Source: Acidobacteriota bacterium (GTDB taxonomy: Bacteria; Acidobacteriota; Vicinamibacteria; Vicinamibacterales; UBA2999). From it: a stretch of DNA of 46,678 bases. The DNA lies in the NCBI GenBank assembly GCA_030697165.1, contig JAUYQQ010000005.1:1-46678 (forward strand). Direction: 5' to 3'. The notes beneath the pieces were generated by a model. The model saw nothing but the letters and a program-made list of their open reading frames with translations. It was not told where the DNA came from and did no database searches. Position numbers and translations under genes: made by a program. Of this stretch, positions 1 through 19,348 are shown piece by piece; the first letter of the stretch is position 1; each line of letters begins with the position of its first letter.

Positions 1-4628
<4,628 letters not shown>

Positions 4629-17495: not shown

Positions 17496-18062
17496 ATGAA
17501 ACGAACAATCCTGATGGCAGCCGGCCTGCTGGCGCTGGCCAGCCCCACTTTCGCGCAGGCCCCGACGGCCGCCGCGACCCCCGGCCCGCACGACGCGGCG
17601 CTCGCCGCCGCCCCGGCCAACATGCGCGACGGCGCGATGGTCATCAAGTGGAAGGCGGACGGCTCGTACGACACGCTCCGTCCCGGCACCAACCGGCTGA
17701 TGTGCTACGACCAGTCCGGCGACGCCGGCGAACAGCCGGTCTCGTCGCAGTGCACGAGCGTTGGCAATCTCGAACGCGTCAAGCAAAACAAGATCTACGA
17801 AGCGAAGATCGCCGATCGCGCGGCCCGAGAAGCGGCCTTGACCGAGCTCGAAAAGGCCGGCACGCGGGTGAAGCCGGAATTCGGCTCGGTGTTCTTCACG
17901 CGGCAGGGCAAGGATGCGACCGCCACCCGCTTGCACGTCACGATCGCGGTGCCGGGCGCCACGGCAGCATCGCTGGGCCTTCCGGACAACAACAAGATGG
18001 GCGGCGCGTGGATCATGGCCGCGGGCACGACCGCGGCGCACATCATGACGCCGGGGAGCTAA
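17496..18062 (+). CDS. Secreted protein of unknown function
   Basis: A 188-residue protein starting MKRTILMAAG, with GGAGG about seven bases upstream of the ATG. A clear Sec signal peptide ends near ASPTFAQ (residue 21). The mature part starts with an Ala/Pro/Thr stretch and has two cysteines (in LMCYDQSG and SSQCTSV) that could form a disulfide. A charged helical middle (about 95-125) is followed by a segment ending GGAWIMAAGTTAAHIM. I do not recognise the family. It stands alone on the plus strand between gltX and ispDF. Confidence 0.8.
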   Translation: MKRTILMAAGLLALASPTFAQAPTAAATPGPHDAALAAAPANMRDGAMVIKWKADGSYDTLRPGTNRLMCYDQSGDAGEQPVSSQCTSVGNLERVKQNKIYEAKIADRAAREAALTELEKAGTRVKPEFGSVFFTRQGKDATATRLHVTIAVPGATAASLGLPDNNKMGGAWIMAAGTTAAHIMTPGS

Positions 18063-18140
18063 GTGCCAAAGTGCCAGGGTGCCAGGGTGCCAAAGTGCGA
18101 GCACCTTGGCACCGTTAGCACCTTGGTACCCTGGCACCTT
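18063..18140. repeat. GTGCCA-word palindrome between convergent genes
   Basis: Directly after the stop codon, four copies of TGCCAAAG or TGCCAGGG run in one direction (18063-18099). Copies of CACCTTGG and CCCTGGCACCTT follow in the other, so the RNA can fold into a long imperfect hairpin. It lies between two convergent genes and could end transcription from either side, although there is no T-run. Confidence 0.7.
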
Positions 18141-18148
18141 GCTGCGCT

Positions 18149-19348
18149 CTAAGCGCCAGTCAGGAGCGCAATCGCATGGCACGCCATCGCTTCGCCGCGG
18201 CCCATGCTATCGACCCCTTCATTGGTCTTCCCTTTTACGCTGACCGCGGCCACCTCCACCTGTAGCGCGGCGGCCAGGTTCTCCCGCATCGCCTGCAAGA
18301 ACGGCAGCAGCTTCGGCTTCTGCGCAATCACCGTCACATCCACGTTCGAAACGCGATAGCCGGCGGCATGCACGTGTGCGAGCGCACCGCGCAGCAAGGC
18401 GATGCTGTCGGCGCCCTTCCACTTCGGATCAGTATCCGGAAACAGCCGGCCAATGTCGCCCGCGGCTGCCGCGCCGAGCACCGCGTCGGTCACGGCGTGA
18501 CAGACGATGTCGGCGTCGGAGTGGCCGTCCAAGCCGAGTTCGTACGGAATGGTCACGCCGGCCAGGATCAGCGGCCGGCCCGCGACCAGCCGGTGCAGAT
18601 CGTAGCCGTTGCCGATGCGGATAAGGCGACGGCTAAAGCCATCGCCCTCCGAACGTCGGCCCGCCTGGAGAGCGACGGCTTTAGCCGTCGCTAGATCTTC
18701 TGGCGTCGTGATCTTCATGTTTCCTGGATCGCCCTCAACGATGTGAACCGGCAGGCCGAGGCGCTCGACGAGCATGGCCTCGTCGGTCACGTCAGTCTCG
18801 CTGCCGGCGGCCAGCGCGCGGGCCAGCACGTCACGGCGAAAGGTTTGCGGCGTTTGGGCGAGGAACACCGACTCGCGCGGCACCGTCGCGGTGATCGGCC
18901 GCGAGCCGTCGGCCATGCCGGGCCCAGCCTGCTTGACCGTGTCGCGCACCGGGATGGCCGCAATCGCCGCGCCATGGGCGATGGCCGCATCGATCGCGCG
19001 GTCGATCACGGCGGCCGTCACGAAAGGACGCGCCGCGTCGTGGATCAGGATGATGTCGGCCGTGGCCGCGGTCTTCGCAAACGCCTGGCTCACCGAGTCT
19101 TGCCGGCGCGCCCCGCCCGCCACGAATGTCAGCGGCTTGCCGGCGCCGCCCGCCCAGGCGGCGGCCGCGCTCGCCAGGTGATCCGGCGGCACCGCCACCA
19201 CGATCTCGTGAATGCGATCGTTCGCCACCAGGGCGTCGATGCTCAAGTCGAGAATGGAACGTCCGCCGAGTTCAAGAAACTGCTTGGGGCGATCGGCGCC
19301 GAGCCGGACGCCCCGGCCCCCGGCGGCAATGATGGCGGCTACGTGCAT
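18149..19348 (-). CDS. ispDF: Bifunctional IspD-IspF enzyme of isoprenoid synthesis
   Basis: Two MEP-pathway steps in one 399-residue protein. Residues 1-218 are IspD (cytidylyltransferase that makes CDP-methylerythritol), with the nucleotide-binding loop [17 protein letters not shown] (8-24) and HDAARPFV (103-110). Residues 244-399 are IspF (cyclodiphosphate synthase), with metal ligands in GYDLHRL (D250, H252), [18 protein letters not shown] and the C-terminal [13 protein letters not shown]. The linker (219-242) is encoded by a palindromic repeat. IspE, which acts between these two steps, is in the same window at 42,933. Confidence 0.96.
18625..18692. repeat. Palindromic repeat inside the ispDF linker
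   Basis: The arms 18625-18650 and 18667-18692 pair at 23 of 26 positions around a 16-base centre. Each arm is itself near-palindromic (GCGACGGCTTTAGCCGTCGC type). It encodes residues 219-242 (ATAKAVALQ... GDGFSRRL), exactly between the two catalytic domains, and keeps the frame open. Confidence 0.8.

Follow-up and report, generated by a model that had tools for sequence, protein, structure and literature searches.

Two REP-like units read in frame at the IspD-IspF joint of an acidobacterial fusion enzyme

In an Acidobacteriota genome (assembly GCA_030697165.1), the joint between the two halves of the fused enzyme IspDF is encoded by two units of a dispersed, REP-like repeat, which lie head to head, are both read in frame and together specify residues 220 to 241 (Table 1). 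We consider it very probable that this pair was mobilized by a RAYT (REP-associated tyrosine transposase) and inserted into a joint that already existed and that tolerates inserts. A first-pass annotation of the window, a 46,678-nucleotide stretch of contig JAUYQQ010000005.1, had proposed a repeat of a noncoding type turned into protein in ispDF, and on this point our analysis agrees with it. Beyond that annotation, we find that the repeat consists of two REP units, that REPs sit at the same place in some relatives, and that other genes are hit as well.

The IspD and IspF domains lie in a single frame, as is required of a bifunctional IspDF, with Pfam placing IspD at residues 3 to 225 and IspF at residues 243 to 396. 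The NCBIfam model of the bifunctional enzyme scores 362 bits, below its cutoff of 417; both single-domain models score above their own cutoffs. A structure search matched the solved bifunctional IspD/IspF of Campylobacter, PDB 1w55, likewise a fused enzyme. The nearest named records are metagenome bins with the labels Acidobacterium, Acidobacteriota and, oddly, Cyanobacteria and Sulfopaludibacter, followed by a Vicinamibacterales bin at 56%, so the host would be a Vicinamibacterales-like acidobacterium. The 68-bp inverted repeat of the first-pass annotation, with 23 of 26 arm bases paired, is borne out: the arms (18626-18650 and 18667-18691) are 25 nt long, 92% complementary and separated by 16 nt, and adding the unpaired positions 18625 and 18692 gives the 23 of 26. 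Each arm is also palindromic in itself (GCGACGGCTTTAGCCGTCGC and GCGATGGCTTTAGCCGTCGC). The numbering of the encoded stretch as residues 219 to 242 likewise stands; its description as exactly the linker does not, since the Pfam boundaries show that the palindrome covers the end of IspD as well. The segment folds far more stably than its shuffled versions, both as RNA (91 nt, z = -7.85) and as DNA (66 nt, z = -8.22). Two weak microRNA matches, far below their gathering scores, were all that Rfam returned over the palindrome, and a search of a plasmid collection gave no match. Elsewhere in the window, a cluster of GGTGCCAAGGTGC-like repeats, first direct and then inverted, lies between two convergent genes (18062-18138); it holds 7 of the 13 matches in the window, for which the chance mean is 1.86 over the whole window.

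Table 1. Coordinates of the ispDF joint in the window and loci of in-frame REPs in other genes of the genome
Feature	Position or locus	Strand	Basis
ispDF, fused IspD and IspF, 399 aa	18149..19348	(-)	Pfam and NCBIfam domains
REP A, GGAG foot and 20-nt palindrome	18667..18691	(+), antisense to ispDF	Arm search, 28-nt pattern (C5:18664-18691:+), AlphaFold2
REP B, CGTTC, GGAG foot and 20-nt palindrome	18626..18655	(-), sense to ispDF	Arm search, 28-nt pattern (C5:18626-18653:-), AlphaFold2
Spacer between REP A and REP B	18656..18666	(-)	Codon listing, by eye
In-frame REPs within mfd, ileS, pheS, pheT, helicase, oxidoreductase, TPP enzyme and others	L154, L156, L166, L164, L145, L170, L151, L153, L171		

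The two units are predicted to contribute differently to the protein. In an AlphaFold2 model computed from a 19-row alignment of IspDF (mean pLDDT, 89; pTM, 0.59), the last helix of IspD spans residues 216 to 230 and includes the REP A-derived residues 220 to 228, whereas pLDDT falls below 50 at residues 231 to 240, nearly all of which derive from REP B. REP A, which encodes residues 220 to 227 and one base of residue 228 (ATAKAVAL-Q), is thus predicted to supply the end of the IspD C-terminal helix. REP B, in which CGTTC (18651-18655) precedes the foot and palindrome (18626-18650), encodes residues 232 to 241, the predicted disordered linker. The codons of the spacer between the units resemble, by eye, native helix codons, (E/Q)A.RR, of relatives.

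As the annotation had supposed, the element is a dispersed one of the REP type, with many further copies of the arm in the genome, also outside genes. The 20-nt core gave 75 strand matches at ≤3 mismatches in the 5.39-Mb genome, many of them a single palindrome counted on both strands, versus 4 for a reversed control; a 28-nt pattern that includes the foot and leaves stem positions free gave 63 matches versus 0. The foot GGAG is present in 61 of the 63 copies (the pattern named it but allowed 3 mismatches). The pattern leaves three stem pairs unconstrained; of the 189 pairs that these give over all copies, 169 are Watson-Crick and a further 17 are G-T (shuffled mean, 107; maximum, 122), indicating that the two sides of the stem covary. 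The family thus has the many dispersed copies and the hairpin with a paired stem and a short loop that characterize REPs, together with a RAYT gene between inverted REPs, as described below. In the text available from two studies (PMC6006769 and PMC2817692), REPs are described by a GT[AG]G foot, and the former mentions some classes without such a foot; with GGAG in its place, we call the present family REP-like with a deviating foot. Native helices at the joint can be rich in alanine (DLAAAQAAG in G004), and alanine codons might by chance make a palindrome. We regard such an origin as practically negligible, as the linker matches a genome-wide repeat of 63 dispersed copies twice with zero mismatches, and none of 10,600 codon-shuffled linkers came within 2 mismatches of that repeat.

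Six Y1-transposase genes are found in this genome (G000), one of which (G000:C2:335681-336061) lies between inverted first-family REPs, five plus and two minus copies, and is a RAYT (NF047646, REP_Tyr_transpos; 111.5 bits against a cutoff of 80). Among the matches listed, RAYT genes of three other genus members (G008, G001 and G007) are likewise located between inverted REPs. First-family copies number 63, 27, 21, 53, 47 and 77 where a RAYT scores above the cutoff (six genus members) and 12, 7 and 5 where none does (three members); controls were 0 to 4, and the difference has an exact p of 0.012. The first family is associated with RAYT genes. A second family, with the pattern CCAGRAGGGC.G..CTTYAG..C.GCC derived from a copy in the ispDF linker of G006 and a copy in pheT of G005, has 40 matches in G000 (control, 2), where it flanks a second RAYT gene (C13:80003-80395, in region G000:C13:79956-80498). 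This family is also found in G003 (35 matches), G008 (28), G005 (26) and G001 (23), with controls of 1 to 2, and one copy in G008 is a single base off the G006 linker copy. G003 carries its 35 matches yet has no RAYT above the cutoff, so REPs are not accompanied by a RAYT in every case.

We compared the joint among relatives. An ispDF match was found in 57 of 60 genomes, our own included; all 57 loci were read, and 53 linkers, again including our own, were parsed (L235, L240, L253 and L261 were dropped). The genus is represented by nine genomes, G000 to G008, and G005 has no ispDF match, which leaves eight readable linkers. In each of the 53 linkers, the frame stays open between the final IspD motif and the initial IspF motif, and in 49 neither of the two REP families for which they were scanned has a copy at ≤3 mismatches, which argues that the repeat entered a preexisting joint. 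The first-pass annotation had favored a different story, in which a repeat between separate ispD and ispF genes was read through in frame and thereby created the fusion; the repeat does sit exactly at the joint, but with every linker an open fusion and nearly all of them free of both families, we find this hardly credible.

Within the genus, first-family REPs at 0 to 1 mismatch occur in the linkers of G000 (two units, zero mismatches), G007 and G002. The single antisense unit of G007 has the same start and frame as REP A, beginning in both genomes directly after EDL/DDL codons, and the single sense unit of G002 aligns with REP B and has the foot GGCG. The linker of G006 contains a second-family REP with 0 mismatches (codon-shuffled linkers at ≤3 mismatches, 0/5,300). 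REPs are thus present at the joint in three other species, so that, with G000, four of the eight genus members whose linkers could be read carry one there; among the 53 linkers, REPs were seen in this genus only. By REP density alone, the probability of finding them in three of the seven other members is near 1e-7, a rough figure that ignores shared ancestry. A pattern-free scan for hairpins identified perfect stems of ≥8 in exactly these four linkers of the 53 (null, 64/5,300; ∼0.64 expected) and stems of ≥7 in nine (∼2.4 expected), five beyond the REP-bearing ones. In G057, the junction segment is unusually long (L260; 207 nt, against 99 to 150 for all other linkers parsed) and includes a 7-bp hairpin.

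The G004 linker holds an antisense look-alike in the register of the G007 unit, with 5 mismatches (pooled null, 46/10,600; p ∼0.001 for that linker); it is also the nearest approach among the relatives to a linker that keeps the peptide and has lost the palindrome, which the annotation had named as evidence against its repeat-to-protein reading and of which we found no instance. No first-family trace is evident in the ispDF linkers of G003, G008 and G001 (best, 8 to 10 mismatches; p = 0.22 to 0.95). The nearest ispDF in sequence is that of G003, at 83% over the aligned protein; its linker differs and is shorter, and none of the relatives examined is a strain with the exact empty site. These comparisons also bear on whether the hairpin is kept for a role in RNA or DNA, such as stabilizing the mRNA or pausing transcription between the enzyme halves, with the peptide being incidental. 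The very stable fold and the intact hairpins of coding REPs in several species would fit such a role, but an intact first-family hairpin is missing from ispDF in five of the eight genus members examined (G003, G008, G001, G004 and G006), so there is no general need for it, and we judge the idea improbable.

Other genes of the genus reveal both shared and separate insertions. A genus tree from four proteins, read unrooted, separates G000, G003, G005, G006 and G008 from the rest with support of 100, as it does the pairs G001/G002 and G004/G007; G000, G006 and G008 group together with support of 76. A nearly identical REP dimer in ileS is found in G000, G006 and G008 and was not seen in G001 to G005, which fits inheritance within that group. 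In pheS, G000 and G008 have a unit, a further REP occupies that loop in G007, and G006 has no pheS match; one mfd loop bears REPs in G000, G001 and G002. The G002 mfd (L219) has, compared with that of G001, an extra in-frame coding insert within the REP loop. In the pheT loop, G000, G008 and G001 have a dimer, whose spacer is identical between G000 and G001; G007 has a single unit and G005 a second-family copy, and G004 shows a decayed sense unit (5 mismatches, p = 0.005) with an antisense-like peptide recognized by eye only. The G003 loop has no REP. Candidate first-family relics in the pheT loops of G002 and G005 gained no support from their match scores (sense p = 0.39 and 0.13), and the G005 loop holds the second-family REP instead.

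We weighed whether a single old REP insertion in the genus ancestor, followed by decay, partial deletion or loss in most species, could account for the ispDF pattern. The shared start of REP A and the G007 unit, the G004 look-alike in the same register and the pheT dimer shared by G000 and G001, members of different clades, all speak for it. Conversely, G003, G008 and G001 lack any trace in ispDF, and the different REP family at the G006 joint and in the G005 pheT means that at least those insertions were independent. We therefore hold a single insertion to be possible, if somewhat unlikely, and more than one insertion would have taken place at the joint. Across the genus, inheritance and fresh insertion, the latter for the second-family copies in G006 ispDF and G005 pheT, are both needed.

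In G000, the 63 copies group into 36 clusters, 21 of which lie within a predicted gene according to our own simple calls from codon use. Eighteen REP-overlapping calls were translated and scanned with Pfam; this set leaves aside L167, predicted as a gene across the array of REPs next to the RAYT, and the partial overlaps L148 and L168. We judged 14 of the 36 clusters, ispDF included, to be internal and in frame. For ten, Pfam domains or aligned relatives flank the REP on either side: ispDF, pheS, pheT, ileS, mfd (two), helicase (two), molybdopterin oxidoreductase and TPP enzyme. The other four, in FAD oxidoreductase (two), a spermine-synthase fusion and a molybdopterin-binding enzyme, were judged from a one-sided domain and an open frame. 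L147, L160, L155 and L172, where the REP is probably ahead of the true start, and two cases in L162, where it is near an end, were not counted. With 89% of the stretches read predicted as coding, internal clusters are strongly depleted at 14 of 36, as expected if most insertions in genes are lost, yet they are far from absent. All 13 antisense units within these genes use one and the same frame, though a second is open (0.5^13 = 1.2e-4, with dimer partners not independent), and the 9 sense units use two frames (6 versus 3).

In two further gene calls, kept apart from these 14 clusters, REP units lie at the beginning of the gene, on our reading of the start codons, and may form signal-peptide-like N termini. 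In G000, a REP dimer supplies the N-terminal stretch of L157 (2227-4080, minus strand), a TPR protein that contains a CxxCH motif. The G001 homologue (L266) also has a REP dimer at its start, and those of G003, G004, G007 and G008 begin with an ordinary signal-peptide-like segment. Over 12 residues, hydropathy peaks at 2.57 in L157, at 2.1 to 2.6 in the latter four and at 2.0 in the G001 protein. The start of an ankyrin protein (L149; REP around 4091-4134, minus strand) is similar, with a peak of 2.1.

Translated REPs have precedents. Di Nocera et al. (2013; PMC3733652) describe, in the portions available, intragenic GTAG/CGTC REPs, monomers and dimers, the dimers encoding 20 to 30 aa, in conserved genes, tRNA synthetases and repair genes among them. 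For these, the authors propose flexible linkers or loops. Intragenic REPs, dimers included, are thus already known from that account. Ours share with them the translation of monomers and dimers within conserved genes; they differ in the GGAG foot, in the acidobacterial host genus and in that the same loops carry two REP families across species. With REP/RAYT systems (REPtrons, REPINs and BIMEs), as portrayed in excerpts of PMC2817692, PMC3116915, PMC8266576 and PMC6006769, the present one shares a foot tetranucleotide with a hairpin, paired inverted units and a RAYT between inverted REPs. It differs in its foot, GGAG rather than GT[AG]G, and in a gene-internal share larger than in Pseudomonas fluorescens SBW25, where, in the part of PMC3116915 consulted, 14 of 1,067 abundant 16-mers overlap genes. 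The palindromic elements of Rickettsia (Ogata et al. 2000, as summarized in extracts of the review PMC2229807) are also in-frame inserts in conserved proteins; at 105 to 146 bp and in Rickettsia, they are distinct from our units of 25 to 30 nt in an acidobacterial genome with a RAYT. The same extracts mention further kinds of small mobile sequence that are fused in frame and of which some have a predicted signal peptide. A literature search of incomplete coverage, over partial texts, returned no description of this REP family, no IspDF that contains a REP and no case of signal peptides arising from REPs alongside RAYTs. New to us are the GGAG foot, the fact that two REP families reuse the same protein loops, and the REP-derived signal-peptide-like starts.

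We propose that two REP units, mobilized at some time by a RAYT of the genus, would have entered the existing IspD-IspF joint head to head, where both came to be read in frame. The antisense unit, in its commonly used open frame, would give the end of the IspD C-terminal helix, and the sense unit would lengthen the flexible linker. The units may persist because the joint tolerates inserts, perhaps without benefit to the enzyme, and the same filter would leave REPs in variable loops of pheS, pheT, ileS, mfd and other genes. More tentatively, with the odds slightly against it in our estimation, REPs and RAYTs may be a lasting generator of protein segments in this genus, with two families repeatedly entering the same loops of essential enzymes, some inserts being inherited and slowly decaying into ordinary coding sequence, and one REP frame offering a ready-made core of a secretion signal. 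The IspDF joint seems to be a site at which mobile repeats can be accommodated and translated. It offers a traceable case of mobile, usually noncoding hairpins becoming protein, with intact, shared, apparently decayed and absent states at the same sites across nine genomes of one genus, so that whether such segments are merely tolerated or used becomes directly testable in well-understood essential enzymes.
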